From Amphiura filiformis (lineage: Eukaryota; Echinodermata; Ophiuroidea; Amphilepidida; Amphiuridae), in the NCBI RefSeq assembly GCF_039555335.1, contig NC_092641.1, positions 31,866,848-31,930,847 of the forward strand: a stretch of 64,000 nucleotides of DNA, written 5' to 3'. Below are positions 1-45,153 of this stretch, piece after piece. Within the stretch, counting starts at the first letter, position 1; each line of letters opens with the position of its first letter. Both the position numbers and the translations under genes were made by a program. The notes beneath the pieces were generated by a model. The model was not told where the DNA came from and did not search any database. It saw only the letters and a list, made by a program, of their open reading frames with translations.

Positions 1-224
1 AAAAAGTAAAGATACAGATACCTGTTTTTATAAGAATTAGACAATCCGGGACAAAATTATTGGATCACTTTAGCATGTGCTTTGTAATTGATCCCCCTTT
101 CCCCTATCAATGTTGAATGTTGTGGAAGTACCCAGCATTGACTGGGGAAAGGGGTGAGTGTTAGACCCCACCAATTACCAAACCGTCTCGAGCTGTGACC
201 CTATTGCCGAACAAAAAGTTATAG
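1..224. other. unassigned intergenic sequence
   Basis: I see no gene, splice-supported exon or clear repeat here. Confidence 0.5.
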
Positions 225-411
225 TTACATTAAGGGCTGTGCAATAATTATGAGCCTGGATGGAAGGGTAAAATGGGGGGTGTTGGCGAGCCGAAGGGGG
301 GGTAATTTTGGCAATCCGAGAGTAAGGGCAAGCGATTTTTGGCACACATTCATGTGGCGCCTTTAAAAAACGCTCTAAAAAGGCTTAGGAAAACTGTACG
401 GAAACGCTTTA
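225..411. repeat. G-strand-biased MITE family, one-ended copy
   Basis: It begins with the family terminus GGGCTGTGCAATAATTATG and continues with G-rich text and the family motif GCAAGCGATTTTTGGCA. It ends in a block (about 361-411) that reappears in inverse orientation at about 34466-34510. Other members are at 53521, 54813 and 55573. The opposite inverted terminus is not visible, so this is a truncated or variant copy. Confidence 0.7.
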
Positions 412-687
412 ATATGCTAATTAAACGTTTGTTTTATTAGGCGCCCCAAACTTGGACTCGAACATAAAAGGAGTCCGACTTGGCTCGGACTCGGATACAA
501 ATGGACTCTGGTGCTAATCTCGGGGTCAGAACTAGCGTTAAATTGTGAATATGTGACGATGTTTGAACGTTTTCCTGTTTGTGTTATTGAAAAAGCTCCC
601 CCCCAAAAGCTTGTCAGCAAATACTCCCCCCTGAGCCTTACATATAATATGCCCCAACAATTGGCCTTTTAATAGTTTGATATAGGC
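412..687. other. unassigned sequence
   Basis: It has C-rich patches at 599-630 that may belong to the G-strand family. Short reading frames here show no family signature. Confidence 0.4.
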
Positions 688-1103
688 TCCACAACTTATA
701 AGTTCCCCCCTAATACATTTTAAAAGAAATGTAAAAATGTAAAAAGGTATGTATAGCCCTATTTGTTTGACACATGTAATTATTGCGTTCAGACACAACG
801 GTTAATTGTGTAAGAAAAGAAACCGTTTTAAAAGTTGCACCTGCGTCCATAGCATTTAGGATTTCTTTAACAATCACATGAATAGTCCTGGCCAACTGTA
901 TTGTTTAAGACTGTTTAAACCGGTCTCTTTTTTTACATAATGAACCATTATGACCGAACGCAATGACGCTATAATTTGGTTGATGGTCCATATGTGTAAA
1001 ACAAATAAGGCCACCCATATCTTTTTACACCTTTGCATTTCGTCAAATATTTTTTGTGTTATTCTAAAAAGTATTTAGAGTGGAACTTATAAGTTGTGGA
1101 CCC
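688..1103. repeat. imperfect inverted-repeat element
   Basis: CCACAACTTATAAGTTCC near 690 is matched in inverse by GGAACTTATAAGTTGTGG near 1083. Weaker inverse matches follow inward, for example GCGTTCAGACAC near 785 against a related block near 955. This is consistent with an old MITE of about 415 bp. Confidence 0.5.
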
Positions 1104-1489
1104 TTTATTTTAACTTAGATCATTGCAGAAAGCACATTTCCGGAGATTGGAGATAGTGAAGGTATATGCTTTTATTTGTGTACCATTGGGAGCTAAATGG
1201 ATCCGATCGTGAACTCACAGGTTTGTATATATTATAAGGCAAGTCATAGGGGAGTGGGATAAAGCTGTTCTGGAATATTTCATAATAGTAACAAAATATG
1301 CTCTTACTTACTCCATAGGATGTAATTATTCATATGCCATGAATGATAACTGAATGATGGGGACAAACAATCGAAACTGTCCACGTTTGTTTTTAAACTA
1401 TGGTTTCTAGTTTCTCCCCATTAATTGATACATCCAATTCATCGTTGGACCCCATTCTCATGACTTAACTTGTCTATGCACTGCGTTTT
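1104..1489. other. unassigned sequence
   Basis: Nothing supportable. A possible 43-nt mini-exon ends at a GTATAT near 1160, but it has no phase partner. Confidence 0.4.
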
Positions 1490-1990
1490 GCACCCTTATA
1501 TTGTTGTCAGTGTGCTCTGTTCTTCTACCTGACCTGCAACCAGATCTATGCCGTCAGCAAATCGAAGGTTGGTGATGGTTCTTCCACCAATGCTGACTGA
1601 CCCTTCAAAACCATCCAAGGCTTCCACCATGATATATTCAGGAAAGATAGTGGATAGTGCCTCCAACACGTGTGCAGAACCCAATCACTAATTTCGTCTC
1701 CCAAACAGGGATAAACAATTTTACTGAAACTGCTTTAACATTTCCTGAAAATGTGTATTTCCCTATACTTTGTACAATGAAGATCCAAGCAGAAATCAGG
1801 AAATTTGCTGAAGATTTACAACCCTGCCCAACAATTTCTCTACTGATGTTGAACATTCTCATAATAGCACTCCTTTCTTCCTGGCCATGCAGTTGTGATA
1901 GAGTGGCTTCTGGTCTGTCCAGAGTTTCTCACTCGGCATTCTCAGATCTGCTCTGCCATAGGACGTCCCTTCCTGAACCCTGCTTATTCC
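1490..1990 (-). pseudogene. non-LTR retrotransposon reverse transcriptase remnant
   Basis: On the minus strand, 1684 down to about 1496 translates to a segment containing SIGGRTITNLRFADGIDLVA. That is the palm region of a LINE-type reverse transcriptase, normally ...RFADDIDLLAG.... The catalytic FADD motif reads FADG here, so the copy would be inactive. Upstream sequence out to about 1990 carries further decayed fragments in shifted frames. The clade (RTE/CR1-like) cannot be fixed from this piece. It may lie in the 5' flank or an intron of the repeat-protein gene that follows. Confidence 0.75.
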
Positions 1991-2079
1991 ACTGCCAAGA
2001 ACTACTTACCAACCCAAAGTGTTACAATTAAATAACAAATAAACAAAAATCGGTGTTCGCAACACATATTGGCGTAGTA

Positions 2080-2290
2080 ACTATACATGATGCAGTTATG
2101 TCTACAGTAGAATGTGTACGATGGTTAAATCCACACTACACATGTTTCTGATTTACCTGTGCGATATTGCAATGAGCTGGTATTATAGTTTCAGTTGGGT
2201 GAACGATTATAAAGCAAACGCAAGGTAACAATACTGTGTGAGGCTTTGTTGCCCAACTGGAAGCTTGAATTTTCATCTGCATGGGGCCTG
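2080..2290 (-). repeat. end fragment of a dispersed TIR element
   Basis: CATGATGCAGTTATGTCTAC near 2087 and the following 200 bp match, in inverse orientation, 5755-5985 and a shorter block at 23430-23486. It is one end of an element family described under 5131-5985. Confidence 0.6.
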
Positions 2291-2395
2291 CCCCTGGCTC
2301 CACCGTGTCTGTTTTTTTTAAAAGTTATCTATTGCAATTTTACTATCAGCTAAAATGATTTGGGGTTTGTGTTTTTTTATATTGATTCCTTTTAG

Positions 2396-2570
2396 AATTG
2401 GTGGCTGGGAAATGGCGTCACTCGAGTGCCACTGACGAGCATCTCCAATGACCGGAAGCCACGTAGTATTAGCCGCTCTATGGTCGTGTGTATGGCAGTT
2501 TCTATGATAGCCGTTGTGTTAGTGCTAGCTGAAATCGGGATTATTATTAGCCTTACTCTTCCAAGTCCAA
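2396..2570 (+). CDS. exon encoding cytoplasmic stub plus transmembrane segment
   Basis: The acceptor ends in a pyrimidine-rich ...GATTCCTTTTAG and the donor is CCAA|GTAAGA. The exon is 175 nt, open in phase 0 and ending in phase 1. The product starts [11 protein letters not shown], then has a basic Arg/Lys/Ser-rich stretch, then a hydrophobic run ([20 protein letters not shown] and on), then TLPSPS. Positive charges precede the hydrophobic run, which favours an N-in type II anchor. Joining to 7533 creates an Asn codon and keeps the frame. An internal ATG at 2480 could start a shorter form with a signal-anchor. Linkage to the repeat exons is inferred from phase only. Confidence 0.55.
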
Positions 2571-5500
2571 GTAAGATGAATGTAAAAGTTTTAATGCTTT
2601 TTATAATTAACTTATTCGTTATATCAAAGGAACGTCGTCGCATTGAACGCAGACAGTCCAGTCTGCAAGAGTTACAGTAGACAGAGTCCTACAAACAACT
2701 TAATGGAGTATAGAGGAATCCAAATCCACGCATTCCTACACCTGACTAGCAGCCTTTAGTTGGGTAGCCGTCGGCTACAATGCACTCAAAATGTGAAATG
2801 ATTCGGCCTTGGCGGAAATTTTAAACTGCATTCCATCACCCGTTTTACACCTTCCGCGAAAACACAGGTAGACAAAAGAATGATTAAAGTTTACAAGCTT
2901 CTACATGGTCTATTCGCTGTTGAAGTGACATAATAATCGGATTAACTACACGCGGTATCTATGCATTCATGTACTTGCGAACAAAAGGACTATGTATGAA
3001 TAGATGCGACGGGACTACCTGCGGAATTATCTCTATTGTATTATTCTATAAACCCTCCTCGTCCTTGCATCTTCTCTAGGTGTTAGGCGGCTTTTATTTG
3101 CACAATTGAGCGCTCAAAACACCAGGTTGGTGCTAGCGGCTACCCAAAGATGGCCGAACAAATCCTGACCATGACTTGGCTCGTTGGATTCGTCTATAGC
3201 CAGATATTGCTCGTCTTGAACACTATTATAGGTTTAGCTATCTATAGGACCCATGTGACGTGACCTTTGTATATGTTGCATTCATTCCAAGATTATACAC
3301 AGGGACTGACGACTCAAGTTTCGAGTTCAGACATACATGTATTCAGCGAGAGGTTTGCCGACGATATTGCTTCCGACTATTACGCGTACGCGAACATGTT
3401 GCACTCAACCAGAAAAAAATGTGTTGACTTGACATCACAATAAACTTCGTGGTACTGGTTCTATGGTATGTCGATTATTACTGTATTGAAGTACGTGGTA
3501 ATTTGACAACGGGGTACACCGTGCCCATACATATGCTGTAATAGCACTTTGTAGCAGTCAAGTTAGCTCAATCGATAAGGCGTTCGACTATGGTGCGAGA
3601 GGTTGCGGGTTCGAACCCTGGCGGTGCCTAGTACGCTCTCGTGGAAATAATTGAGTAAGCTTGAAATTCCCCTGGACAAGGAACTTACTGCTAATTTGTC
3701 TTGTTGTAACCCGTACGAAACCCGGGGAGCTGATCCTGGTTGCGAAGGTTATTTGTGGAATGTCTAGGGTGTGCGCTCTTGAAGCAGCAAAGTCCCTGAA
3801 TTGTTGTTTAATGGTTTATGGAATGATGTGGGCATGGGGCCGTAGTGGTCAGCGACAACCTGTAAAGTGTGCTGAGGCTTGTGGATTAACGTCTAGGCGT
3901 TGTGCCTGTGCGTAGCGCATTATAAATCACTGCGCATTTTTTTTTAAATATCCATCCCAGCACGGCATTTACCGTGACAATACGACCGTATTGACACAAT
4001 GGGTTACGTGTACATATGGGTGTACTGGGTCCTGCTTCACAGGTCATCACTCCACATATCTGACATGCATTAGACCTATGTTGGAGTTTTGTTTAAACAA
4101 TGCTTTACTTCATGGGATGGGATCGCCCATCTCTCCACCAGTGGCCGACCTTTTCTTTGAATATGAAGCTCTTCTGACCGCTCCTAATCCCGCCTTGGGA
4201 TTTGAAAACGGTATGTTGACGACACATGCTATGCTATCAAATGCGATCACTTAGCTTGTTTCATGACCCACGTCAACAATCTTCAAAAGGAAGTTATCAA
4301 ATTCACTAATGAGGAGACGACCAATAACCAGTTTGATTTCCTTGCCATTCTCAGCAAGAGAATGTCTGACATTTCGCTTACTACAGTTGACAGGAAGAAA
4401 ACTCACACTGACCATGCTGACTTAACTTTGACTCGCACCATCCAGAATCAGCCAAATGTTCAGTGCCGCAATATTCATTAGGCCAAGAGCATAAGTCAAA
4501 AGGTGGAAATAGCTCATAACAAGCTACATTTTCAGGGTCCAGGAATATGGCCGCCGTTTTCCATTGCAACCATATACAAGCTAGAAATAATATTTTAATA
4601 TTAAAATATTAACACTTTAAAAAGTGTCTAAACATATGTTTCAAGGTACTAGGAATCTAATAAAAACAAAACTAAGATTGCTCCAAAAATGACCGCCATT
4701 TTTCAATGTTTACATTATTTTTTCCACCCGGCATGTTAGATTCACAAATTCAATTCCTATACATTATGTTTAAAGACACAAATTATCTAAGTTAAGTTTA
4801 AAGTCTGTTATCATAGATCCTCTTGAGGTGCCTCACCAGGATCTCCGTCTACAGCTAGACTAGACAGTTTTTAAAATATGCTTGGACGCCATCTTAGTTA
4901 CTGCTACTTGTGAGTAAAGGAGACTCTATGCAATGTTTTTATTAGATTCCTTGTACCTTAAAACATAATTTTTTAGTAAATTGTCTGGTTGCAAAGTTAT
5001 GATGAAATGGACAATGACGGCTATTTTGGACGCCATCTTGGATTTCCGAGAGAGCACAAGGGGGAATTTTGGGGAATTTCAGTATGTTATTTTACACATA
5101 TTCTTGGACCTATCCTGAAAAATTCAGCGTCTTACATACTGCAGTTACTGTCCGTTTTCCTATACACAATACACAGTGCTCTCACCATTGACGCGTGACC
5201 TTTACAAATGATGTATGTTGGAAGAATGGACACTTGCCTAGTTAACATCACTGTGTGAAAAATAACCAGCCAATATTTTATTTATTCTCCAAAACTTCTA
5301 GCAAATATATTTCTCTAACATGACCTAAAATTACAGCTAGGTTAGATGTTCAGAAATGGTCGCACTTTTGTAAAATATGAGTGAGGGCAAGGCATAGCTA
5401 GCCAACTCCCCGTGTTAATTGAATGGAGATTTGACCGAAAATATTGGTATCGGACCGCTCACTTCTGAAGGATGCCACAAAAACCGGTAAAAGCTACATT

Positions 5501-8500
5501 TAAACTATTCTAAATAGGTTCTAGAAAATATAGTTTTGTAACATGTCCTAAATTTTAGCTAATTTAGATGTTTGGAGAGGGTCGCACTTTTGTGTTTTAG
5601 GAAGGATATGTAAACGACAGATAACACCAAAAATATGAAGAAATTATTTCCAAACCGTGTTAAGTCAACAATCATTATGTTGCTCATTTTGAAGAATGCT
5701 GGTTAACAAAAAGCAGGTCTTTGTCTCATTTCGTGAACAAAGATACACATACCATTGTTTGCTTTCGTTTCCTTTATAATCGGTTACCCAACTGAAGCTA
5801 TAATACCAGCTTTATTGCGATGTCGCACATTGAAAACAGACACTTGTGCACAACCAGAGAAGATCTGATTTAATCAGTTGAGCTGCTTCAATGAGTGTTA
5901 TCTTGGTTTAATAGCTTTTAATGGGGTTTAAGTCCTGCAAAGGTCGAGATGAATTCTACTGTAGACATGACTGCATCATGATGAGCTATTTTCAGGTTAT
6001 AGCTAATGTTCTTGGCCTTTATTTCAAAGAGCTGACAATGATCCTCAAACATTGAGAATAAACGATACGAAAATACTCACATCTGACAAGCATTGAAGCT
6101 AAACAAGTACCCTTCTAAGTTTGTTCATGTCTTTACATCTCACCTATACGCAATGTTTATCAGAACGACCAATATTGTGAGACAGCTACGCGACTTGCCC
6201 TTAAAATTCATGGAGTGATGAGCACATAATATCAGTTTTCCATTGGCTCATAATAAAGCAAAGAACAACCGTCGTGGTCAGTGAACGTCTACTCAGCGAT
6301 GAGTGAATGTCACTCATCATGTGACATTATGTTTCTGAACTTTTCCAGCTGTAGACTCTAGTCCACTGTTTACATTGATGTGTCCACTAATGTTCTGATC
6401 AGTTTAAACGCCTTTGCGTTAGGTCTGGGTAGACATTGTCACTTTTAGGCCTATATTTAAATTTTGTTCTTGCTTTGTGCTTTTTATTAATTTTACTTTT
6501 GAAGGTTATCTTGACTAGACTTTCGGAGACCCGCTCACAGTAATTTGGTTCGCTTTGGGGTATCCGCCGGGAGTCGGGTTGGCTGTTTTCTGATTTGATT
6601 TAAAACAAATTATGTTGTGATATATTTTGATTGTGTGTTTTTGCCTGGAATATTGAAAATCAAATCAAAATCAAATGAAACCATTCATCACCTAGAATCT
6701 TATGACCATCTGCAAATGATCTGGTTGCCAATTGAAAGCAAATGTCAAGTATTCAGTCCTCAACAAAGTTTTATGGTGCGATATAATGTCTTTTGACAGC
6801 ATAATGTATGTTTATTTATACCATTTATCTAATATTGACATCCACAATAGAAAAATTATTACACATGTGGGGATTCCGAATTTGTAATATGTCATCAAAA
6901 ACAACATTTTGAAAGTATTTGACGATGGCAAAAAAGCTGTTATGGCAGCGCGGAGGTGGTCACGTGCGTATTTATAAAAACGTATATCGAAGCATACTGG
7001 AAACAAAGTTTTCAGGAAAGACTAAAATGTTATGAGCAAGGGGGTTATGACCCCACGACCCCCCATTGACAAAAAGGTCTGAATTATGAATAGAATTAAC
7101 AAAGGATCACTTGTTCATGTTAAACAGTTCACTTTTTGCATGTCGAAGGCATGTTACTATAGATATGCTTCTGTATACAAAAGACATAGAATAAGGTCGG
7201 AATTTTAATCAATTCATTTTATTTCAACCGCAAATGGGAAGATAAGATATGACCAGAGGAATACTTTGGCGTGTTAATTTACAAAATCTGAGCAATTTTG
7301 AAATTTGAATCCTGTTTTATGAAGCTCGACCCCTGTTGACTTCTAGCCACATTGTTGAGCTTATCGTTTACGCATTTTTTTCTGATCTACAGTCGTCGAT
7401 TAGAAGTTTATTTCCAAGAGTGCCCGATCATGCCGATATGCTCCTCTTCCAACTTAACTACACATATGCGCTAATCGAGTATCTTCACTTCGAGGCAAAA
7501 TTAAAAGAATCATGATGCATTTTCATTTTTAGATACCGTTGGGGATACAGTGGACGATTCAATAGATAACTGTCCTCTTATATCGAATCCTGGCCAGGAG
7601 GATGCAGATGGCGACGGTGTTGGAAACGTGTGTGACAATTGCGTCAACGCCGCCAACGCCGATCAAGCCGACGCAGATGGCGACTTGATTGGAGACATAT
7701 GTGACAATTGCGTCAACGCCGTCAACGCCGATCAGGCTGACGCAGATGAAGACTTGATTGGAGACACGTGTGACAATTGCGTCGACGCTGTCAACGCCGA
7801 TCAGGCTGATGCAGATGAAGACTTGATTGGAGACATGTGTGACAATTGCGTCGACGCCGTCAACGCCGATCAGTCTGACGCAGATGAAGACTTGATTGGA
7901 GACATGTGTGACAATTGCGTCAACAGCGCCAACGCCAATCAGGTTAGTTAATTATAGGCCGATAAACTACAATCAAGGAAAAAATTAATATAGTTGGCAT
8001 ACATACTTTGACAATGTTGGAACTCTTCATTGCCGCCCTGAGAATTCAGTGAAATTAGCATAACTATGTTTTGTTGATGAGAAGTACAAACCACCCCCTT
8101 TCCTCTTCCCTCCCCCATTTACCGTCAACCAATGTTGGCAAGACTAGAGAGCCCAATGTCAAAATTGCTTTTATCAACATTGAATGGGGGCGGCGATTTA
8201 CAGTTATTATGCATGAGTGTGGCAACATTAAATTCCTTGATTGTAGATATGCTGTTAAGTCCAGCCATGACCTTGAAAGACCTTTTATGACATTGAAATT
8301 ACCTTGAAGTTACCTAAGAATAGACTTTTCGCGAAGAATGTTGCACTACTTTTCATAACAATCAATCTAATAACAAATCCATCTAAATAACAAATCTCTA
8401 AAAACGCATGCATTTTAGCAAAAACTATTCATGAGTGAAATTTGACCCTAATTGAGTCATGTCAAGACTAAAGTCTGGGGTAGCAAAGCTTTTGCCCAAG

Positions 8501-11500
8501 TTTGATATTAAATTGGATCAATTCGGCTTATATTTTAAAACTCATAGCGATACCAATAAATATTGGGCCTAAAGCATTCACTTTTATCATTATTATGTTC
8601 TGGATCCAATATTGTCAAATATTTGTATTCATCAAAACGCATAATGGGCGTAATATGCCCGGTAATATGTGTGTATAGATGCAAAACATAATAATGATAA
8701 AGTTTGAAACTTTATGCCCGATATTTATTACTTTCGCTCTGAGATATAATAATAATGGACTAGGATACATCTCGTCCAATAATGTAAAACTCATAGCTGG
8801 ACCATAACAATAAATAGTGCTTAACCATAGAACTACTGAGCCAAATTTTGTAATATGGACTACGAGGGGGTTGTTATTACAACCCCCAATTTTCAATTAT
8901 AAACGTCATATACCGTTATATTTGATACCAATGTATAGCTATGGGTCTCCTCTATACAGTGATACCAAAATAAGTACAAACACCCCACATAATGCTGCTA
9001 TGACGTCATAATATGAGGGCGCCCAGGCAAATTTTGGAAATGTACAAAAATATAGGCAAAATTGATTTTCGGCTAAAAATTAAACGAATATGCGATCTTC
9101 GCCGAATTTTCTCCTACATATAAAAGGCAACGACTGTTTCAACCTAACAAACAAGTAAAAAGTCAGTAGCTCTTGGAATAATTCGACAATAGCGAAATGA
9201 AAATCATGGATTTTACTGTAGAAACCAATGGTGGGCCTCACCAACACCCTTCTATGGTCATCATTGATGGTAGGTCCTACCCCCGGGTAAGGTGCTGGGG
9301 GGAAAATGAGCGCAAAATATGGATCTACGATTAGCTTAGGTCGTTAGGGCGTAAACACGCGCATTGGTTATGACGGATAAAAAAAATCAACCCCCTTCGT
9401 AATTCAAACTTGGGCAAAAAGCTTCATTATCCCAGACTTAACATTTGACGTGACCCATTTGGAGTCAAATATCGCTATGAATTTATCTGAATAAAATAAT
9501 TACAGGTTGACGCAGATGGCGACGGGATTGGAAACGTGTGTGACAACTGCGTCAACGACGTTAACACCGATCAGGCCGACAAAGATGTCGACGTTATTGG
9601 GGATGTGTGTGACAACTGCGACGACGTCAATAACCCCGACCAGGTTAGTAATGTTAATTTCAAGATTTCTCTAAACGTGTGAAAAACCGAATTTGTCAAA
9701 TTTGCAATTTGTGATTTGTATTTTTAATTTAATTATCTTATCCGAATAAAATTAATTAATTACAGGCTGACGTAGATATCGACGGAATCGGAGACGTGTG
9801 TGACAACTGCGTCAACGACGTTAACACTGATCAGACCGACACAGATGGCGACAAGATTGGAGACGTGTGTGACAACTGCGTCAACGTTGCCAACGCTGAC
9901 CAGGTTAACTCAGATAGAGATGATTTTGGAGACCCGTGTGACAACTGCGACGATAACGACAACGACGACCAGGTTGGTAATATCAATTTCAAGATTTTTT
10001 TTACACATATGAACCGAATTTGTCAAATTTGCAATTTGCTATTCGTGATTTGTATTTTTATAGTAATTATCTTATTAACATTAATCTCGTTAACATTGAT
10101 CAGACCGACACAGATGGCGACAAGATTGGAGACGTGTGTGACAACTGCGTCAACGTTGCCAACGCTGACCAGGTTAACACAGATAGCGACGTTTTTGGAG
10201 ACGCGTGTGACAACTGCGACGATAACGACAACGACGACCAGGTTGGTAATGTCAATTTCAAGATTTTCTTTACACATATGAACCGAATTTGTCAAATTTG
10301 CAATTTGCTAGTCGTGATTTGTATTTTTATAGTAATTATCCCGGGTAATTATCTTATTAACATTAATCTCGTTAAAATTGATCAGACCGACACAGATGGC
10401 GACAAGATTGGAGACGTGTGTGACAACTGCGTCATCGTCGCCAACGCTGCCCAGGCTAACACAGATAGCGACGTGTTTGGAGACGCATGTGACAACTGCG
10501 TCAACGTCCCCAACGCTAACCAGCTTAACACAGATAGCGACGATTTTGGAGATGCGTGTGACAACTGCATCGACGTCGCTAACGCTGACCAGGTTAACAC
10601 AGATAGCGACGACTTTGGAGATGCGTGTGACAACTGCATCGACGTCTCCAACGCTGACCAGGTTAACACAGACAACGACGGTATTGGAGACGCGTGTGAC
10701 AACTGCGACGACTTCGACAACGACGACCAGGTTAGTAAATTCAAATTCAACATTTCTCTATACATGTGGAAAACAAAATTTGTCACCTTTGGATAATAAT
10801 TAAACAAAAAGTAAACCCAGAGAAGTGTGTGTGAGAGCAGCGTGCAATTCTTCATTCTGTGATATAGCAATATTTTACGTTACATTTTTTTGCTTTGAAT
10901 ATAGACCTACATTCTTGTCAATTTCAACGTCGGTCTTTTAATGAACCTCATTAGAAAAAAAGTTTCTGCAACTTTCATAGGTGATCTTAGTTTTAAAAAC
11001 ATGTCGTTTTTTATTATTTTTATAGAATTTGTAATATTATTAATTTTGTTGAAAACAGGCATTTGTTTTACTCTACCTCTGGGCAATAAATTCCTTTTAA
11101 ATGCGTTTTATTTGTATTCTTACCATAATTTATGTATAACATTAATTGCAATTTGTTATTTATATTTTTTAAAATTATTATCCTATCTGAATAAAATAAA
11201 ATAACAGGCTGACGTAGATGGCGACGGTATTGGAGACGTGTGTGACAACTGCGACGACGTCGCCAACCCCGACCAGGTTAGTAAATTCAATTTGAATCCT
11301 ATCTGAATAAAATAAATTAATAACATGCTGACCGTTTTATTTGTATTCTTATCATAATTATGTATAACATAAATTGCAATTTGTTATTTATATTTTTTTA
11401 AATTATTATCCTATCTGAATAAAATAAAATAACAGGCTGACGTAGATGGCGACGGTATTGGAGACGTGTGTGACAACTGCGATGACGTCGCCAACCCCGA

Positions 11501-14500
11501 CCAGGTTAGTAAATTCAATTTGAATCCTATCTGAATAAAATAAATTAATAACATGCTGACCGTTTTATTTGTATTCTTATCATAATTATGTATAACATAA
11601 ATTGCAACTTGTTATTTATATTTTTTTAAAAATTATTATCCTATCTGAATAAAATAAATTAATAACAGGCTGACGTAGATGGCGACGGTATTGGAGACGT
11701 GTGTGACAACTGCGTCAACGACGACAACGACGACCAGGTTAGTAAATCCACATTTGTCACCTTTGGATAGAAATTAAACAAAAAGTAAACCCAGAGAAGT
11801 GTGTGTGAGAGCAGCGTGCAAGTCTTCATTCATTATAGCAATGTTTTTTTGCTTTGAATATAGACCTAAATTCCTGTCAATTTCAACTTTGGTCTTTCAA
11901 TGAACCTCATTAGAAAAAAGTTTCTACAAGTTTCATAGGTGATGCTGGTTTTAACAACATGTCGTGTTTTACTGTATGAAATCTGTAATATTGTTGAAAA
12001 CTGGTATTTGTTTTGATCTATCTCTGGGCAATAAATGCCTTTTAAATATCGTTTTATTTGTATTCTTACCACTGTATAACATAAATTGCAATAATATTTG
12101 TTATTTATATATTTTTTAAAATTCTTATCCTATCTGAATAAAATAAATTAATAACAGGCTGACGTAGATAGCGACGGTATTGGAGACGTGTGTGACAACT
12201 GCGTCAACGTCGCCAACGCTGACCAGGTTAGTAAATTTAATTTCAACATTTCTCTACACACTGACACATGTGGAAAACCAAATTTGTCACCTTCGATTCA
12301 AAATGAAAAAGAATGCAGAAAGTAAATTTGGAGACGTGTTTTGGGACAACAGCTTGCATTTCGTCATTCAATATTATATAAGCGCACCACCATTAAACGC
12401 GCCCACTGAAATACACTGGAAAAGACACACGTACGTAAAATGTGGTATCAAATTAAAGCTGAGCATGTGTTAAATATTATTCTTTTAAAAGTATAATATC
12501 GATGCCCATATTCTACTCTCTTTGCTATTATGCCGCAAAGAAAAAAGGTACAAATTTAACCCTAATTTTTCAACGTATTTTGGACTATATATAACTTGGC
12601 TTCTGTAGCCTTCTGAGCTCCACATCAAACTGAAAATGGTGCAAATACCCATGTTTATAATGTCAAGGAAAACAATAAAGGCATTAACAATGTTATACGT
12701 TATTTCGTTTGGTGGCCATCTTGGATTTCAAAATGGCTGCCATCATCAATATATTTTTGACTATAGCTGTGAGCCACGCAGCAAGCTTAAAATGGTGACA
12801 ATACCCATGTTTATGATGCCAAAGATTGCAAATAAACAATATATACAAAGGTACAGGGCATTTTGTTTGGCAGTTCTGTGAGATTTCAAAATGGCTGCCA
12901 CTAACAACATAATATTAACAACACATTTCGGACTACAAGGTTTATCTTACATTCAGAGTTATTTTATAATCCGATAGGACTACTAGTAATACCCATGTTT
13001 ATAATATAATGCCAAGGATGACAAAAAACACAGTTTCAAGAAGGTTACATTTTTGATGGCTACATTAGATCTCAAAATGGTCACCATTATTAATATAATT
13101 TGGCCTGTACTTCTTGACATTCTGTAAGATACGGCATTATATAATGTTCTTTGAATCTTTTCCACCGCAGGCTGCTATATCTTTGTTACTAAGCAACATT
13201 GTACATAAATTCCTTGCAGCCAATTATAACTCCAGATGATGGTACGTTCCCTTTGCCGAGAGCATTTATAACATTGTCCGGCGCTTCTAATAATTTTAAG
13301 AGGGCAGATTTGGTATTTCAAGTAGTATCACTGCCAGTCAGTACATGGACATCAGGCCGGACGATAGCTCTTGATGTTCCAAGTTCATAAATAGGTTTCA
13401 AAGCTATGACCCTTCTGTTGTCTGATATTCCTGTGATTATGTGAATGTCAAGCCCTACTTCAGGGAGTCTCCTCAATAGAAGAACCACCAGTCTGTGTCT
13501 TCGATGAAGACGTCGACCTCAATACCAGACTTCACAAGTTCAATACCTTGGAGGATCATCAATGTGTCTGCCTCCTCCTGTGTGCTATGGCCAGTACTGT
13601 ACTTCAGGTCTGGTACGTGTGTTTGTTAAGACATGTCTTCTGGTGACAGTAACTGCAGGTTTTGTGTTGTTAGAAATGATTTTATCAGCCAGGAATAGAG
13701 TCAGGCTATCCGTGGACTTCATATTGGCCATCGCCTTCTAAAGCAGGACGTGTCATCATGATAACTACAGCAAGAAGCTGACCCTCAAAGATGACATACG
13801 TCATGAGACAGAGTGTGTTTAGACTGTATAACAGACAGCACTCATGTTAAAGACTTAATCTTGAGGAGTGATATGTATTGCGGAATGTATTGCTTAGAAC
13901 ACTAACGATTGCCTGGACCATGGAAATAAGAGAATATTTCCATGCCTGGACAACGTCCTGCCATTGCATCGTTTATCAAGTTGTTAAAGTGATTTAGAGT
14001 TAATTCTGGGGATATATTACCACTTCTTTGTAGTGACTGCTGATCTCTGCTCGGGTTGACTTCTTCAGGGACTATTTCATCAGAGGTCATTTCAAGGTTT
14101 ACGGCTAGACTTTGTGGTCTTATAAGGCCGCAACATATAGTTCTTGTTCTTTCGGCCAAAAACGTGAATTTAACACTCAAAATGTTTCTTCTTCTACAAA
14201 TAACATAGCACAGTTACGTCACTTGCACACATGCTTAGGCGTCCCGGTTTGGGGTTATTTCTGGTCTGAAATTGAAAACAAAAATCAAAAATCCAATTGT
14301 CTTAAGTTACACAGTACAATAACGCCACTTGCACATAAACATTGTTATTAGTCTATGTCTTTAAGAGGTTAACAAATTACATTTGGGTCAAAGGTCAATA
14401 AGGGGTCACTTCCAGTCCGAGACAAAAAATCTTCAAATTCTTCTTCCACAAACACAATAGCAGAGTGACGCCACGTGCACACATGGATTGATATTAGCCT

Positions 14501-15859
14501 ATGTTTATGTGTTCATAGATTTAGGGGTCAAAGGTCATTAAGGGGTCACTTCCGGTCTAAAACTAAATACCCTCAACAAATTTTATTAGCCTGGAAAAAC
14601 ATAGCAGATAGCTGGAATGTTCACACACGAATTGTTGTTACCAAATTTACACGTGACACTTTTTATTTTGGGTAAGAGGTTATTAAGGGGTCATTTCGGT
14701 CTAAAACCAAATAGGCCTACGGTCAATAATCTTTCATCAGCTTGGTAAGCAGAGAGCCAGTATGATAACACATGAATTGTTGTTACCCAGTCTAAATGTG
14801 TTTTTTATTTGGGGTCAAAGGTCATTAAGGGGTCACTTCCGGTCTAAAAACAAATATCTTCAAAATTCTTATTAGCCAAGAAAACACACCACATGCAGTG
14901 ACGCTATGTTCACACATGAATTGTTGTTACCACATTTACATTTTTATTTGGGGTAAGAGGTTATGAAGGGGTCACTTCCGTCTAAAACCAAATACCGTCA
15001 ATAATTTTAATCAGCCTTGTAAAAATAGAGCCAGTATGTTCACACATGAATTGTTGTTACCCAGTCTATATGTGTTTTTATTTGGGCTCAAAGGTCATTA
15101 AGGGGTAACTTCCGGTCTAAAACAATTCTTATTAGCCAAGAAAACACAGCATCATCTTTTATACTGTGTTTTTGATATTTTGTGGTAATTATGTGTTTTG
15201 TTGGTATGAGCACTCATGAATGTAATTTCCCTTGTGGATTTTAATAAAGTTTTACTTGACTTGACATGCAGTGACGTTATGTTCACACATGAATTGTTGT
15301 TACAAAGTGTAAATGTGACATTTGTTTTAATTTCGGGGCAGAGGTTACATCTGGTCTAAAATCAAATGCCGTCAACAATCTTTATTAGCCAGGAAAAACA
15401 TAGCAGAGAGCCGATATGTTCATGAATTGTTGTGACTTAGAAACTGAAAAATATTTAGGCTCATATAATTAATCCACTAGCCTGTTATTGTAAGTTTATA
15501 TGTATACATCTTACTACACACCAAGATTACTATTGTATTTCGTTGTGTTGATTCTCATCATGTCCATATCTCACATTATTTTGTCTTTATTACACAATCA
15601 TGACAATAATAATAATAAAAAAAATCCGGGGCAAAAAATGACAAACTTTAATACAATTAATTTTATATTCCCTTCAACATACAACCCGCACCTTTCGAGA
15701 TTCTGTCGAGCTTGTTAATATAATTATCTTATCCGAAAAAAATTATTGCAGGATGACACAGATGACGACGGTTTTGGAGACGTGTGTGACAACTGCGTCA
15801 ACGTACCCAACCCCGATCAGGATCCGAGCGCGTGTACAGGTGCACCTGCCTCTCCGTGA
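2396..15859 (+). CDS. predicted membrane-anchored thrombospondin type 3-like repeat protein (gene span)
   Basis: This gene model is built from splice sites and reading phase. The 2396-2570 exon ends in phase 1 and the 7533-7942 exon starts with the matching 2 nt. All later junctions are phase 0. The joined product is about 600 residues: a basic 28-residue segment, a hydrophobic anchor (about residues 29-53), then one partial and 22 complete 23-residue units of the form (A/V)DxDxDxIGDxCDNCxxxxNxDQ, ending in a 12-residue tail and a TGA. The acidic positions match the calcium-coordinating DxDxDG pattern of thrombospondin/COMP type 3 repeats, and CDNC supplies the disulfide cysteines. No EGF-like, coiled-coil or L-type lectin C-terminal domain of true thrombospondins is present in the window. 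A start codon is not secured, because the first exon seen is open through its acceptor. The protein is probably a type II membrane or secreted calcium-binding protein. Its function is unknown. Confidence 0.7.
2700..3260. repeat. dispersed repeat, inverse of 21650-21970
   Basis: Blocks at 2705-2850 and 3140-3200 (for example GACCATGACTTGGCTCGTTG) are found inverted at 21650-21970. A segment near 2915-2960 resembles the termini of the element at 18309-20480. It looks like an old transposon lying within a long intron. Confidence 0.6.
3553..3945 (+). mobile_element. tRNA-derived SINE
   Basis: The head is tRNA-like. Box A-like TTAGCTCAATCGATAAGG is near 3564 and a perfect box B GGTTCGAACCC is near 3608. 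The body contains CCCTGGACAAGGAACTTACT, which resembles the conserved central domains of widespread animal SINEs (V/Meta-type). The 3' end is GCGCATTATAAATCACTGCG followed by a T-run. The head retains internal Pol III promoter elements, but cloverleaf pairing is poor, so I call it a SINE and not a tRNA gene. Confidence 0.75.
3990..4480 (+). pseudogene. Penelope-like reverse transcriptase remnant
   Basis: The + strand encodes [20 protein letters not shown] near 4116-4180, parallel to AMGSPVSPIVANLFMEWLEQ in the fuller element at 40738-43227. After a frameshift near 4260 comes a segment aligning with the following RT connection region ([18 protein letters not shown]). The YVDD motif is lost. 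It lies inside the long intron of the repeat-protein gene. Confidence 0.75.
4490..5130. other. intronic repeats with ATGGCCGCC / GCCATCTTGG motifs
   Basis: Several degenerate units carry a GACGCCATCTTGGATTTC-type motif, shared with 12590-13110 and 20820-21415. A reading frame at 4989-5198 is probably incidental. Confidence 0.45.
5131..5985. mobile_element. dispersed TIR-like element (CATGATGCAGT family), long copy
   Basis: It starts CATACTGCAGTTACTGTCC near 5136 and ends ...GTAGACATGACTGCATCATG near 5980. The ends form imperfect inverted termini. A deletion derivative of the same element is at 23251-23486, and an inverse end fragment is at 2080-2290. No transposase frame is seen, so it is non-autonomous. 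Confidence 0.6.
5986..7532. other. intronic sequence without recognised features
   Basis: This is the remainder of the predicted 4,962-nt intron 2571-7532. It is AT-rich with no recognisable coding or RNA feature. The acceptor at 7531-7532 follows a T-rich TTTTCATTTTTAG. Confidence 0.5.
7533..7942 (+). CDS. repeat exon A: TSP3-like units 1-5
   Basis: The exon is 410 nt with acceptor TTTTTAG and donor CAG|GTTAGT. It starts with 2 nt of a split codon and ends in phase 0. It begins with a partial unit containing [12 protein letters not shown], the only place with the canonical CP of thrombospondin type 3 repeats. Five full 23-residue units follow. Units 3-5 read DADEDLIGD, so the third acidic/glycine position of DxDGDG is altered. 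DNA of the last three units is nearly identical, so they expanded recently. Confidence 0.85.
7975..8230. repeat. copy 1 of the sequence flanking the repeat array
   Basis: It is alignable to 16360-16590 in the same orientation. Shared landmarks are TTTGACAATGTTGGAA, CTTCATTGCCGC, CCCTCAACAAGAGACT-like text and AATGTCAAAA. Copy 1 follows the first repeat exon and copy 2 follows the last. Confidence 0.75.
8231..9505. other. intronic sequence
   Basis: This is the rest of intron 7943-9505. It is AT-rich. No exon or element is recognised. It ends ATCTGAATAAAATAATTACAG. Confidence 0.5.
9506..9643 (+). CDS. repeat exon B: two TSP3-like units
   Basis: 138 nt, phase 0-0, acceptor TTACAG, donor CAG|GTTAGT. 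The two units read [15 protein letters not shown]... and [15 protein letters not shown]..., the second ending NNPDQ. Confidence 0.85.
9766..9972 (+). CDS. repeat exon C: three TSP3-like units
   Basis: 207 nt, phase 0-0, acceptor TTACAG, donor CAG|GTTGGT. Units start [20 protein letters not shown] and [10 protein letters not shown]. The middle and last units are the source of the duplicated exon D. Confidence 0.85.
10104..10241 (+). CDS. repeat exon D: two units, acceptor formed from coding text
   Basis: 138 nt if the acceptor is the GATCAG at 10098-10103, donor CAG|GTTGGT. The sequence is a copy of units 2-3 of exon C. The acceptor GATCAG corresponds to coding GATCAG in exon C, so a duplication breakpoint inside a unit seems to have turned coding text into a splice site. 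There is no pyrimidine tract, so acceptor use is uncertain. Confidence 0.7.
10386..10730 (+). CDS. repeat exon E: five TSP3-like units
   Basis: 345 nt, phase 0-0, with the same unusual GATCAG acceptor and donor CAG|GTTAGT. Units carry GDVCDNC, GDACDNC and similar. Units 3 and 4 are almost identical ([15 protein letters not shown]). The last unit ends DDFDNDDQ. Confidence 0.8.
11208..11276 (+). CDS. repeat exon F: one TSP3-like unit
   Basis: 69 nt, phase 0-0. The product is [20 protein letters not shown] then PDQ, the closest to a canonical calcium-binding unit. Acceptor AACAG, donor CAG|GTTAGT. Confidence 0.85.
11436..11504 (+). CDS. repeat exon G: one TSP3-like unit
   Basis: 69 nt, phase 0-0. 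The protein is identical to exon F, with one synonymous GAC/GAT change visible, so it is a very recent copy. Confidence 0.85.
11669..11737 (+). CDS. repeat exon H: one TSP3-like unit
   Basis: 69 nt, phase 0-0. The unit starts [15 protein letters not shown] and ends VNDDNDDQ. Confidence 0.85.
12158..12226 (+). CDS. repeat exon I: one TSP3-like unit
   Basis: 69 nt, phase 0-0. The unit starts [15 protein letters not shown] and ends VNVANADQ. A 3.5 kb intron follows. Confidence 0.85.
12227..12589. other. intronic sequence with MITE fragment
   Basis: 12375-12435 (GCGCACCACCATTAAAC, CACTGAAATACACTGGAAAA) resembles an end of the GCGCACACCACTAAAT MITE family at 33312, 35862, 37269 and 57226. The rest is unassigned. 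Confidence 0.5.
12590..13110. repeat. dispersed repeat (GCCATCTTGGATTTCAAAAT family), copy 1
   Basis: It aligns in direct orientation over about 500 bp with 20870-21415. Shared blocks are CTGAGCTCCACATCAA, ATACCCATGTTTAT, CATCTTGGATTTCAAAATGG and AAATGGCTGCCACTAACAAC. It lacks the insertion present in copy 2. Confidence 0.8.
13210..13840 (-). pseudogene. decayed ORF with EEADT / DTD / LTGSDTT motifs
   Basis: Reading the minus strand from about 13735 gives [18 protein letters not shown], then (frame changes) [20 protein letters not shown] and a DTD segment, then [11 protein letters not shown] and HVLTGSDTT followed by a stop. The order EADT...DTD...LTGCDTT is one I associate with uncharacterised multi-copy proteins in invertebrate genomes, probably transposon-related. 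At least three stops or frameshifts interrupt it. It lies antisense within the last long intron of the repeat-protein gene. Confidence 0.55.
13893..14180 (-). other. 92-codon minus-strand reading frame, unknown
   Basis: It runs from 14180 to about 13905 with no known family. It could be another piece of the decayed element immediately to its left, given the same strand and adjacency. No splice or promoter support. Confidence 0.25.
14380..15450. repeat. degenerate tandem array, about 135-155 bp units
   Basis: About seven units share AAAGGTCATTAAGGGGTCAC, TTCCGGTCTAAAA, TATTAGCCAGGAAAAAC and CACACATGAATTGTTGTTAC, at about 14390, 14525, 14665, 14815, 14955, 15085 and 15340. It is satellite-like and lies in the intron just before the last coding exon. 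Confidence 0.85.
15150..15268 (+). mobile_element. 3' tail of a non-LTR retrotransposon inserted in the array
   Basis: About 118 bp interrupts one unit between ACACAGC and ATGCAGTGACG, which are contiguous-like in another unit near 14885. It ends TTAATAAAGTTTTACTTGAC plus a repeated TTGAC tail, typical of the extreme 3' end of a LINE. Confidence 0.65.
15500..15718 (+). other. intronic open frame, probably incidental
   Basis: A 72-codon frame has a hydrophobic start but low-complexity Asn/Lys text. It lies inside the last intron (12227-15751) with no splice support. Confidence 0.2.
15752..15859 (+). CDS. terminal exon J: last TSP3-like unit and stop
   Basis: Acceptor TTATTGCAG, phase 0. It encodes one unit ([15 protein letters not shown]...NPDQ), then [12 protein letters not shown] and TGA at 15857-15859. 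A possible GT donor exists at TGTACAG|GTGCAC just before the stop, which would skip the tail. I see no exon for it to join. Confidence 0.8.
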   Translation, partial: DDTDDDGFGDVCDNCVNVPNPDQDPSACTGAPASP

Positions 15860-16272
15860 GCTAGCATTATGTAAACCAAAGTGAGGGCATTATTCTATAC
15901 TATATGTACAATGTGAGGACAGTAAAAATGTGAGAACAATTCTTATGTCCTCACATTTCTATGGTGTAAAGGTCACTGTGCTTTCTTGTTCTTTTTTGAT
16001 GAAACTGGGCCCCTAGTATCAACTAAAACATCAAGGCTGCAGGGCCGGCATGCCCGAGGCCGGAGACTCCCATACGACGACTAAACACTCCATGTGAGTT
16101 CCAATATATATAGAAGGGTCCCGCAGGGTAAGAAAGCAACAGCGACCTTGACACCATAGAATAATAGAATATATATTCTACTTTTTAAAAACTTTAACCC
16201 TTTAATTTGCCTCATTCTTCAAACCCTGCCCTCTATTAGGGCAAATTTATGTGGTGTGTGTGGTGTAATTTT

Positions 16273-16278: not shown

Positions 16279-16359
16279 AAATAATGTCGGTTACGGTTTC
16301 CATTAAAAAAGTAAGGCAAAGTGTAAAAGTAGATGCTCTTTATAACAATCAAAGAAAAA

Positions 16360-16590
16360 AACCAGTTGGCACGCTTTGACAATGTGTTGGAATTCTTCAT
16401 TGCCGCTCTCAGCTGCTAGCTCAGTGAGATAGCACTGTATAATTATGTTTGATGAGATGTCCCTTTCCTATTCACGCCCCCATTCCCCCCTCAACAAGAG
16501 ACTGGAGAACTCAATGTCAAAAGTACTTTTTTCAATATTTAATTGGAGTAAAGGGGTGGTTTTACATTTAGTATGCCAGAGTATACTTTA
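16360..16590. repeat. copy 2 of the sequence flanking the repeat array
   Basis: Direct-orientation paralogue of 7975-8230, located downstream of the terminal exon. Confidence 0.75.
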
Positions 16591-30722: not shown

Positions 30723-31759
30723 TTAGTTGAACACCCTAATGCAGTGTTTCTCTGGAATGAATTTCTCCTTATTGTGAGTACGCATATGCCTTTTCAAATT
30801 ACCTGCAAAGTATTTCTGACAATACTCACACTGATATGTTTTTGTGTGAGTTCCGATATGATATTTAAGAGCACAAGAGTGTGCAAAGCATTTCTGACAA
30901 TGTTGGCACTGATAAGGTTTCTCATTTGTCTGAGTTCTGATGTGTCTTTTGAGATCACCATTTTGAGCAAAACATTTCTGACAATGCTCGCACTGGTAGG
31001 GTTTCTCTTTTGTGTGAGTTCTGATATGATATTTAAGACCGCCTGTCTGTTGAGGTCACCATTTTGAGCAAAGCATTTGTGGCAAAATTCACACTGATAT
31101 GTTTTGTCTTTTGTATGAATGTTAATGTGAGTTTTAAGAGTACTTTTGGTTGAAAAGGATTTCTGACAGAACTCGCACAGAAAAGATTTCTCTTTTGTAC
31201 AGGCAGGTCTGTGAGTGTTAACGTGAACTCTAAGAGTATTGTTTCGTGTGAAGGATTTCTGACAAAAGCCACACTGATAAAGTTTTTCTTTAGTGTGAAT
31301 TCTCATGTGGGATTTCAGGTTGCTAGCTTGTGCAAAGCATTTCTGACAATACTCACACTGATAGGGTTTCTCTTTAGTGTGAGTACGGATATGCTTTTTC
31401 AAATTAGCACGTCCAGGAAAGCATTTCTGACAATACTCACACTGGTAAGGTTTCTCGTTGGTATGAGTTCTAATGTGTTCTTTAAGATACACTGATTTTG
31501 AGAAGCATTTCTGACAGTATTCACATTGATAACGTTTCTCTTCGATGTGAGTTTTGATGTGGTAAGCAAGAATAGAAGAATCTGCGAAGAATTTCTGACA
31601 GTACTCACACTGGTAGGGTCTCTTTCTAGCCTCCTTGCTTCTATAAGCCCGTGTATATTTGATCATATGTCTGTCAACATGATACTTTAATCTGTCGAAA
31701 GAGTGAAAGTAGATGCCACAATGCATACAAGTAAATAGTTGCACAAGTCTCACCTTCAT
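30723..31759 (-). pseudogene. frameshifted C2H2 zinc-finger gene
   Basis: It starts at ATG 31757-31759 (MKVRLVQLFTCMHCGIYFHS), the same N-terminal plan as the three plus-strand genes. Seven complete fingers are read (CX2CX12HX3H, linkers like HTKEKPYQ). In finger 8 the frame is lost near 31045: QNGDLNR runs straight into the helix of another finger (GGLKYHIRTH) in a different frame, as if finger DNA was deleted. In the shifted frame three further finger-like units follow. One has its last His replaced by Gln (HIRTQ) and one is two residues short (CQKYFAGNLKRH). A stop follows at 30723. If transcribed, the uncorrected product would carry seven fingers plus an unrelated tail. Confidence 0.8.
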
Positions 31760-32085
31760 CGTTCTTAAAAATTGTATAAGAGTTTAGCTATACGTAAAAG
31801 ATGTGTTGAACTTATTGCCCCATCCACCACTGGAATATATAGACAGCTGCATTAAGGTCCACTTCAGTCACGTACATAAACATATTTGAACTGAATTTGT
31901 AGCGGGCGGGCAAGTCAATACCTCAGTACTACCGGAAATGTCACGTAATAATTTATAATCTGGTGCATCTTCTCACTTAGCCAACATGGCCAATAGTACA
32001 TGTACATGTACAGTCCAAACAATATTTGTTGTCGTCCGGTTGTTTTCCATATGATCCACTTGCGCGAGAAGTGCTTCAACTTAAA
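31760..32085. other. 5' flank of the minus-strand zinc-finger copy
   Basis: No acceptor-leader block like that of the other family members was found here. Confidence 0.4.
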
Positions 32086-35861: not shown

Positions 35862-36312
35862 GGGCAGCACACCACTAAATCCTTCCGCATTTCCCGGTAA
35901 ACATAGGTCGGTAGTGCAAACAAGTGGGTGTCCCTTGGGAGCAAGATGAGTAGCCATGATTGTTTATTATAATTAAATTAAAAGATATGCAATTGGTAAA
36001 TGTTCAGAATATCACAAAATGGTGCATCTTGATCTGGTCAAAAGTTTGGCTCCCAAAACTAATCCGCGTACGGACATGGTAAGGAGGCATTCGTGCAAGC
36101 TGAAAATAAGGGTGGCGCTGTTCAAGTCCCCGTAGCTTAAAAGTTAGTCTCAACTTGTGTCAAAAACCCATTTTAAATTAAATTTTAATCTTTATTTAAG
36201 ACATTGGTGCTACCAAAATATGAAAATGGTTTTACATGGGGTAGAAAAACAAACTTACTTTCATGTATATTTACACGTATTTCAATGGGAGTTTATTTAG
36301 TGGTGTGCGCCC
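35862..36312. mobile_element. MITE, GCGCACACCACTAAAT family, complete copy c
   Basis: It starts GGGCAGCACACCACTAAAT and ends ATTTAGTGGTGTGCGCCC, 451 bp. It is nearly identical to copy d. Confidence 0.9.
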
Positions 36313-37268
36313 TTCGAAGACTCATTTTTTTAGGCTATGGGCATGATTGATACCTGATTTTAAGTGCCAAAAAGTTGAGATTTTTGCCTGAAACTTTTCT
36401 ATTTGCAAAGAAAAAATGTCTGTTTTCTGTTACCGTCTACAAATACGCGATTTCATTCTTAAACGCACACAATATTGTCTTCAAAACAAAGGTTCCCATC
36501 GAATTGACAATTTAAGACCGTGCTATAGAAATGAGCTATTTTGGCCTTAACATCATAGGAGTGGTCACTTTTGATTATACCGACGCAGAAAAAGTGAAAC
36601 ATCTTTGAAATTATTTTGATGCAAAATGTAATTATAAGAATAAAACTCGTATGTTAACGTTTTTAAAATAATCACTGACAATTTAATTGGGTCGCAATAG
36701 ACTTTGAAAGTCAATGCATGCTTTTTTCGTAATACACGGCCCAAAATGCCGGTATTTTAAAGATGTTGTCAAATATTCAATTCCCAAGAGAGAAATATAT
36801 CAAACAATTTGAATGATGGGTTTTCTTAATTTTAGATCTTGCCACAATAATACACACAACTTGGAAAATGAACATTTTAAAGTGCCAAAATGACGTTCCA
36901 TCTACCCATACCCCCAAACTTTAGAACATAGGCCTTTGGCATATCCGTATATACTGCATGATAAACACTGTCACATACTGTTTGTCCACCATGTCATATT
37001 TATGATTGTGAATATTTTTGAAAGAAATCAATCACTTTTCTGATATCAATGGGAATATAAATACAGTTTAACATGGCCTACTATGTTGCTCTGGCCCTAG
37101 AATTCTAAAAAGGGCAAAAAGTAGTACATTTTTCACTAGGTGCGAACTTGTTTGAAGCGCTGTTTTATAACTTTGGAGCGACTAGCAATAAAAAGAAATG
37201 ACACTTTTTTAAGATGTTTAACACTGATTCCAAAAATAAAGAAAAACAAAAATATTTTGTTCTTAGAA
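36313..37268. other. unassigned sequence between two MITE copies
   Basis: Unique-looking, with no gene recognised. Confidence 0.4.
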
Positions 37269-37822
37269 GGCAGCACACCACTAAATCCTTCCGCATTTCC
37301 CGGTAAACATAGGTCGGTAGTGCAAACAAGTGGGTGTCCCTTGGGAGCAAGATGAGTAGCCATGATTGTTTATTATAATTAAATTAAAAGATATGCAATT
37401 GGTAAATGTTCAGAATATCACAAAATGGTGCATCTTGATCTGGTCAAAAGTTTGGCTCCCAAAACTAATCCGCGTACGGACATGGTAAGGAGGCATTCGT
37501 GCAAGCTGAAAATAAGGGTGGCGCTGTTCAGGTCCCCGTAGCTTAAAAGTTAGTCTCAACTTGTGAAAAAAAACCCATTTTAAATTAAATTTTAATCTTT
37601 ATTTAAGACATTGGTGCTACCAAAATATGAAAAATGGTTTTACATGGGGTAGAAAAACAAACTTACTTTCATGTATATTTACACGTATTTCAATGGGAGT
37701 TTATTTAGTGGTTTTGGGTAACATGATAGACCCTGAATCTGATGCTATGCACCCGGGTTCGGGCAGTGCACCTGTATGCGTATTTTATGGTGTACTCCAT
37801 AAAATTTAGTGGCGTGCGACCT
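37269..37822. mobile_element. MITE, GCGCACACCACTAAAT family, copy d with internal insertion
   Basis: 37269-37711 is nearly identical to copy c. A 93-bp insertion at 37712-37804 is bounded by TTTAGTGG on both sides, after which the family terminus CGTGCGACC resumes. Confidence 0.85.
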
Positions 37823-38894
37823 TATGGTATACGAGCTACCTTTAACGACGCCATCGCCAAACCCGGAAATAATACCAGCTGCACAATGCCTTGTCTGTTT
37901 GACCGGACTAGTGCCTAATCACAAGGCAAATTGATTCTTAAATTTACGGTAAATTTGTAAATGAACTCATCATTCGTCATCTAAGAAGCGTACGGCGCGG
38001 GGTAGGTAAACAGTTGTACATAATTGACAAATTGTAATTGCACTTCAGACGAGCTAATAATTATGTTTGTTAATGGTAATATCCGGGGGTAATATAATAA
38101 ATATCGCCAGCGCAGCGAGCAGAATAAGCCCTTTCGCAATTACAACTGCGCATGTGCAGAAACAAAGTCGCCAAATAAATATAGCGATAAACACAACGAG
38201 GCTACTGTACATTTTCAATGGGGTGAACTTTGACGTTTCCGTAAAAACGTTTTGTACTGGAATTTCGCTGACAGTTTGGGCTTCGCAGGAAATTTATATT
38301 TGTATTTCACAGGAAATATTAACATATGTAGGAATGAATAAAAAATGTTTTACAAAAATATGTTTTTGAAGGAAGTGCAAAGTTCGCCGCCATTGGAAAT
38401 GCACTGCAGCCTCCTCGTGTTTATCTCCAAAAAATCGGCAAATATTACCCACAATGCATCATGATTCTGAATTTGCGAACTGGCTTATTAGTCATGTTAG
38501 TCCACCGCGTAAACTTGTATGGCTCAAAATTCGGGCCGATAGTATCAGTTTGTGAATGAGGACATCGATAAGTTCTTTGTACTAGAGCAGAATCTTGGTC
38601 AGAAATCAAGCTACCTCCACACACAGGTTAAATCAATTCCTATTGTGGTAACTTCCGGGGTAACTTGATCGCTGATTCATCTTTCTGCATCGCCAGCGGC
38701 CATGTTCGAAAGATAAAATACAGTAACAATACATGTAAATGATGAATGATGTATAGCATGTATATAGTATGGATAGCAAATATAGTATGACTAAGATATG
38801 AGCAAGGGAGCAATTTGTTTAACGACTGAGGAGCTGATATCATGAAAACCCGAGCTCTTCCTAAATTTGTTAGTGATGTCTGTGATTTCCTTTG
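37823..38894. other. unassigned sequence
   Basis: A 100-codon plus-strand frame at 38067-38369 has no family signature or splice support. Confidence 0.35.
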
Positions 38895-41625: not shown

Positions 41626-41639
41626 TCTTGTCTTTTCTG

Positions 41640-45149: not shown

Positions 45150-45153
45150 AAAA

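Follow-up and report, generated by a model that had tools for sequence, protein, structure and literature searches.

A stretch of 64,000 nucleotides (nt) from the Amphiura filiformis assembly GCF_039555335.1 (contig NC_092641.1, positions 31,866,848 to 31,930,847 of the forward strand; hereafter the window) carries an array of 22 tandem thrombospondin type 3 repeat units. The explanation that best fits the results, and that we regard as probable, is that these units and a half-unit cap form a stand-alone array, which would be an extracellular, calcium-loaded, disulfide-laddered acidic rod, perhaps tethered by an upstream hydrophobic exon (exon T) and modular unit by unit. A prediction made earlier from the letters of the same DNA (the original prediction) had described this locus; its observation as a whole is confirmed as real, and its interpretation as a whole is partly supported.

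The ten repeat exons, named A to J, were rebuilt at 7533-15859 on the + strand and encode a half unit followed by 22 units of 23 residues each. AG precedes every exon from A to J and GT follows each of A to I, in register with the units, and the 506 array codons contain neither a stop nor a frame break. Residues D4, D6, G9, C12, D13, N14, C15, N20, and Q23 are invariant in all 22 units. The rebuilt exons confirmed the count of 22 units in exact 69 nt modules that had been proposed. The eight internal exons (B-I) are 69-345 nt long and all of phase 0-0, as the original prediction had stated for its ten-exon model; the refinement concerns exon A, which is of phase 1-0 and begins with the half unit, read when exon A is joined to exon T and starting at position 2 of that half unit. 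An AATAAA motif lies approximately 414 nt 3' of the array stop codon. Similarity searches with the exons plus 150 nt of flank revealed no further repeat unit in the rest of the window, and outside the array returned two short flank matches only (16345-16460 and 16130-16161). The long I-J intron also holds a tandem repeat with a period of about 144 nt at 14381-15123.

The joined protein was compared with Pfam, and TSP_3 (PF02412) was found in 12 stretches with E = 1.8e-28 and 98.4 bits against the curated cut-off of 25, which bears out the earlier description of the units as thrombospondin type 3-like; nothing besides TSP_3 was found at E <= 1. The calcium-ligand acidic residues and cysteines also stand at the spacing canonical for this family. 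When the exons were taken singly, nine of the ten matched TSP_3 at E <= 0.1, and exons A and C gave sub-threshold zinc-finger-like matches as well. Four sequences of the PDB were matched, namely COMP (3fby, 5e-36), TSP-2 (2rhp, 7.4e-30; 1yo8, 9.5e-30), and TSP-1 (1ux6, 1.3e-08).

For the protein search, 7987 candidates sharing the most words (about 297-945 residues) were scored, 7690 of them reached E <= 0.001, and the best 120 of the 7690 were viewed. Most of these 120 rows are without a name; the named relatives are bacterial, and EukProt eukaryotes account for two rows. Some are bacterial or protist arrays consisting of TSP3 only (e.g. P0001, P0004, P0014, and P0019), which like the array have long runs of 23-residue CDNC units and no TSP_C among their listed Pfam domains. 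However, the longest run among the 120, counted as CD[NDST]C motifs 23 apart, was 16 units, whereas here 22 units are spread over ten exons in animal DNA. The residue that follows CD[NDST]C in the viewed relatives is most commonly Pro (755 cases), with V next (101 cases); in the array, CDNC is followed by V, D, or I in every unit. Bacterial contamination was ruled out by the GT...AG introns that split the array and by stops in seven of the nine introns between A and J. A horizontal origin from prokaryotes was considered: the named relatives are bacterial, but with the best 120 of the 7690 viewed and most of their rows nameless, animal ones may be hidden.

An excerpt of a study of a mega-TSP model (PMC6526912) lists the calcium-site aspartates 171, 173, 175, 179, and 182 as equivalent to those of 1UX6, and cysteines 161 and 181 as corresponding to a disulfide of 1UX6. 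By our own mapping of this spacing, the ligand aspartates fall on unit positions 2, 4, 6, 10, and 13, and the disulfide would link C15 of each unit with C12 of the following one, the two cysteines being 20 apart. At the mapped ligand positions D occurs in 102 of 110 cases and N in the other 8, in agreement with the calcium-binding residues of the original prediction; every unit would thus supply a ligand set of the form DxDxDxxxDxxD, with D or N. Each such unit of the thrombospondin structures binds about two calcium ions. C12 and C15 are present in 22/22 units. In the half unit, position 15 is a cysteine but position 12 is not, and a further cysteine stands in the tail DPSAC. With the half unit and the tail giving one each, all of the 46 cysteines can pair and a sequential ladder of disulfides can close, although the last potential pair is 13 apart and the others 20. 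The second cysteine of each unit would bond the first of the next, with the end cysteines making the array self-contained. This closed cysteine count was absent from the original prediction.

The 540-residue array contains 158 D, 4 E, 4 K, and 1 R, giving a net charge of -157. Such an Asp-rich composition could also belong to a bulk calcium-binding matrix or biomineral protein that acts by charge and calcium concentration, not as a tethered surface rod, and an echinoderm host would fit this weakly. We consider this unlikely, as the strict ligand spacing and the conservation of the cysteines indicate a folded structure. We take the array to be, very probably, a disulfide-laddered acidic rod that is extracellular and loaded with calcium.

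The exon borders of the array fall together with unit borders, on a phase-0 CAG codon. The donors of exons A-I read CAG/GTTAGT or CAG/GTTGGT (slash, border), and the internal unit borders have CAG at 11 of 12, four of the 12 reading CAG/GTTAAC. As the unit and splice borders agree with each other, with phase 0, and with the cysteine register, the array could gain, lose, or skip whole units and keep its frame, its pairing, and its calcium sites intact. Single units and blocks of an exon with its intron have been duplicated to build the array, and such duplicated blocks are present: the segment 9819-10122 matches 10088-10404 at 92.7% in a similarity search. When intron B-C and unit 8 were aligned with intron C-D, the intron sequence was common to both, and then the acceptor and most of the unit were absent. 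What is left before exon D is 16 nt ending in GATCAG that directly adjoin the exon, and exon E is preceded by a nearly identical border. The usual acceptor is absent before both exons, which would be explained equally well by a deletion or by a duplication whose break point fell within a unit.

Before D and E, the unit-terminal CAG would have been taken over as the splice acceptor, and it is the predicted acceptor of both exons. In intron C-D this CAG is the sole AG in frame. An excerpt of a report on a potato gene (PMC4974935) describes a once-exonic segment that became intron and gave a splice donor. The D and E borders resemble that case in that a duplicated segment crosses an exon-intron border and once-exonic sequence, now intron, would supply a splice site. 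The sequence is compatible with intron gain by tandem duplication, in which the predicted new splice site would derive from such once-exonic sequence. It would be a mirror case, as former unit sequence would give the acceptor, not the donor, here in a repeat array and at a site whose use is predicted. Intron D-E itself (10242-10385) is 144 nt long, open, and in frame, and its retention would add a hydrophobic stretch to the array; we treat this as chance.

Further downstream, introns F-G and G-H each hold an orphan acceptor-like copy followed by the initial 6 nt of an exon. Over 37 nt the sole difference of these copies from the live acceptors of exons H and I is AT in place of AG. The pyrimidine fraction of the acceptor tracts is 0.28 to 0.33 for exons F-I, 0.61 for D, and 0.56 for E, and amounts to 0.72 for A and 0.78 for T. 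Neither the unusual borders ahead of D and E nor the orphan AT acceptors nor the pyrimidine-poor acceptors of F-I figured in the original prediction. Taken together, the borders suggest gain and loss of modules at splice sites. Changes of length by exon skipping are arithmetically possible, and pyrimidine-poor acceptors would fit them. CAG stands in phase 0 at the end of 21/22 units. A bolder proposal, which we regard as rather doubtful, is that the repeat also serves as a module for splicing, with its unit borders as latent acceptors and those reading CAG/GTTAAC donor-like as well: where an acceptor is lost, splicing would fall back to the next unit-border CAG, one whole unit would be dropped, and the length of a tethered, calcium-stiffened rod would be tuned in evolution, perhaps also by alternative splicing through weak acceptors.

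Some results weigh against the favored explanation. The 25-bit cut-off was passed alone by one of the ten exons (exon A) and exon H was without any match, and no orthologue was seen among the best 120 of the 7690 relatives. An AlphaFold2 run on the units of exon A with a 12-row alignment reached a mean predicted local distance difference test score (pLDDT) of 46.2 and gave no usable model, which neither supports nor refutes the fold. Intron D-E has another in-frame AG 123 nt upstream of its terminal CAG. The acceptor tracts of B-J as a whole are pyrimidine-poor (0.28 to 0.61), and a part of the exons may therefore see little use or be in decay. Third codon positions are no more variable than first and second ones, as in recently copied DNA. 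The ratio of nonsynonymous to synonymous differences (pN/pS) among the 22 units was 0.62 overall, 1.05 at 13 columns, and 0.027 at the other 10, structural columns; the latter were picked for conservation, so their low value is partly circular and descriptive.

These acceptor tracts, the lack of the usual acceptors ahead of D and E, the two orphan acceptors, and the drift-like pN/pS outside the structural columns could point to a decaying or unexpressed array, a pseudogene in which some exons are turning into intron. But the array codons are free of stops and frameshifts, GT and AG are kept at the borders of A-J, and five of the nine invariant columns (4, 6, 9, 14, and 23) show silent changes, while none were seen at columns 12, 13, 15, and 20. 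Moreover, both orphan acceptors deviate from the live ones exactly at AG, although they lie in duplicated blocks and one event may explain both. We judge decay to be quite improbable; under the favored explanation the array would be expressed. At the unit ends 21 CAG and 1 CAA were counted, compared with 46 CAG and 30 CAA in three zinc-finger open reading frames (ORFs) of the window; because the units were copied from each other, the Fisher p of 0.0014 for this CAG excess is not a fair value. The GC content at third codon positions was 0.644 in the array exons and 0.348 in the same three ORFs, where again the units are copies and a founder may explain the value.

Exon T is a candidate for a membrane anchor. 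It is preceded by AG and has a GTAAGA donor in phase 1 that matches exon A, and the mean Kyte-Doolittle value of its hydrophobic stretch is 2.71; the phase-compatible upstream exon with a hydrophobic segment, first proposed as an anchor, is thus present. The codon formed at the T-A junction is N, the residue found at position 2 in 6/22 units. We scanned for phase-1 GTRAG donors preceded by at least 25 open codons, with no acceptor required here or in the wider-donor scans. Over the whole window the + strand had 25 such frames, of which exon T alone had a 19-residue mean hydropathy of at least 1.8. On the - strand two of 32 frames passed 1.8 and one exceeded 2.3, and ten triplet shuffles gave 0 to 2 frames at 1.8 and none at 2.3. 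Exon T may hold the array at the cell surface, and the type II anchor of the original prediction is plausible. Should translation start at the methionine inside exon T, the exon might encode a signal peptide. Should the coding sequence extend further upstream, the basic residues ahead of the hydrophobic stretch would favor a type II anchor.

The alternative is that the array is secreted or lies in a larger protein, that exon T comes from another gene, and that the signal peptide comes from some other exon upstream, which may lie beyond the window; we rate its chance at slightly below even. Exon T had no homologue among 69 word-sharing candidates and ends 4,962 nt before exon A; it also requires either an internal start or a partner exon further upstream. 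The window begins just 2.4 kb upstream of exon T and may thus begin inside the gene, and exon A starts at position 2 of the half unit, so that an upstream exon could hold more repeats. When GTTRGT donors, the type used by the array, were allowed, one of five frames qualified, with its donor at 1567 and a mean of 2.49, which slightly lowers the odds of the anchor and of the overall reading. When any GT was allowed, 13 of 93 frames in 1-7532 reached 1.8, several of them overlapping the exon T frame. On the other side stand the unique position of exon T in the GTRAG scan and the fitting junction codon, and a possible tether by exon T remains part of the explanation that we favor.

The array apparently is a set of type 3 repeats that stands alone, without the other parts of a thrombospondin. 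Three-frame Pfam scans at E <= 0.1 of + 1-36002 found TSP_3 and no EGF, TSP_N, or TSP_C, as had been noted earlier for the EGF and L-lectin domains. TSP_C was also missing from + 36001-48002, a negative that covers + 1-48002 and that short exons can escape, and the stop codon and AATAAA come after unit 22; for EGF-like domains before the repeats, the window offers just 7.5 kb upstream, where short exons can escape as well. That exon H has no match by itself shows how short domain exons can be missed. Neither TSP_C after the repeats nor EGF before them, the marks of the thrombospondin family, was thus found in the stretches scanned, and a thrombospondin proper is not supported. According to the excerpt of PMC6526912, thrombospondins including COMP and the mega-, sushi-, and poriferan-TSPs share with the array the type 3 repeats, the DxDxDxxxDxxD spacing, and cysteines 20 apart between neighbors. 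Unlike them, the array shows neither EGF nor L-lectin/ConA domains within the scanned stretch, consists of 22 uninterrupted 23-residue units, and has V, D, or I in place of Pro after CDNC. A limited literature search returned nothing that joins thrombospondin type 3 repeats with hemichordates, brittle stars, or echinoderms. If the favored explanation is true, the array would be a case of an animal using type 3 repeats without the architecture of a thrombospondin around them. It would also be a locus where exon birth, death, and re-bordering are directly readable, since the splice site falls together with the unit border, the codon phase, and the cysteine register. The features are listed in the table.

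Table. Repeat exons, candidate upstream exons, and splice-border relics of the array (positions within the window)
Feature	Position	Strand	Description
Second hydrophobic open frame, rival upstream exon	1430-1567	+	46 codons; phase-1 GTTGGT donor at 1567
Candidate anchor exon T	2396-2570	+	175 nt with phase-1 exit; hydrophobic segment preceded by basic stretch; joining to A presumed
Repeat exon A	7533-7942	+	410 nt, phase 1-0; half-unit cap and units 1-5
Repeat exon B	9506-9643	+	138 nt, phase 0-0; units 6-7
Repeat exon C	9766-9972	+	207 nt, phase 0-0; units 8-10
Relic resembling end of unit 8	10088-10103	+	16 nt, now 3' end of predicted intron C-D
Repeat exon D	10104-10241	+	138 nt; units 11-12; predicted acceptor is CAG of truncated unit
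Repeat exon E	10386-10730	+	345 nt; units 13-17; predicted acceptor is CAG of truncated unit
Repeat exon F	11208-11276	+	69 nt; unit 18
Orphan acceptor-like copy and 6 nt of exon start	11296-11332	+	intron F-G; AT where live copies have AG
Repeat exon G	11436-11504	+	69 nt; unit 19
Second orphan acceptor copy	11524-11560	+	intron G-H; AT where live copies have AG
Repeat exon H	11669-11737	+	69 nt; unit 20; no Pfam match by itself
Repeat exon I	12158-12226	+	69 nt; unit 21
Terminal exon J	15752-15859	+	69 nt of unit 22, short tail, stop TGA

The Rfam scan at gathering thresholds and the tRNA scan each gave 0 matches. Pfam scans of + 36001-48002 and - 1-24000 returned families of the zinc-finger type, and CEP104_N was matched once, at 0.0052. 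C2H2 zinc-finger ORFs form a cluster at 44010-45149, 47007-48212, and 49823-51007 on the + strand and at 30794-31783 on the - strand. Their N-terminal modules are alike (e.g. IKYVRAH) and resemble the start of the Amphiura filiformis protein P0173; this comparison covered two of 120 relatives, P0138 being aligned and P0173 compared by eye, and is weak. The named relatives of these ORFs are animals, and among many others the search returned P0138 (42% over 95%) and P0173 (33% over 95%) of Amphiura filiformis. By its content, a multi-exon gene together with these ORFs, the window is taken to be animal DNA, and an echinoderm host is weakly suggested. The ORFs at 40867-42957 (-) have reverse transcriptase-like and GIY-YIG-like segments, and presumably represent a Penelope-type element.

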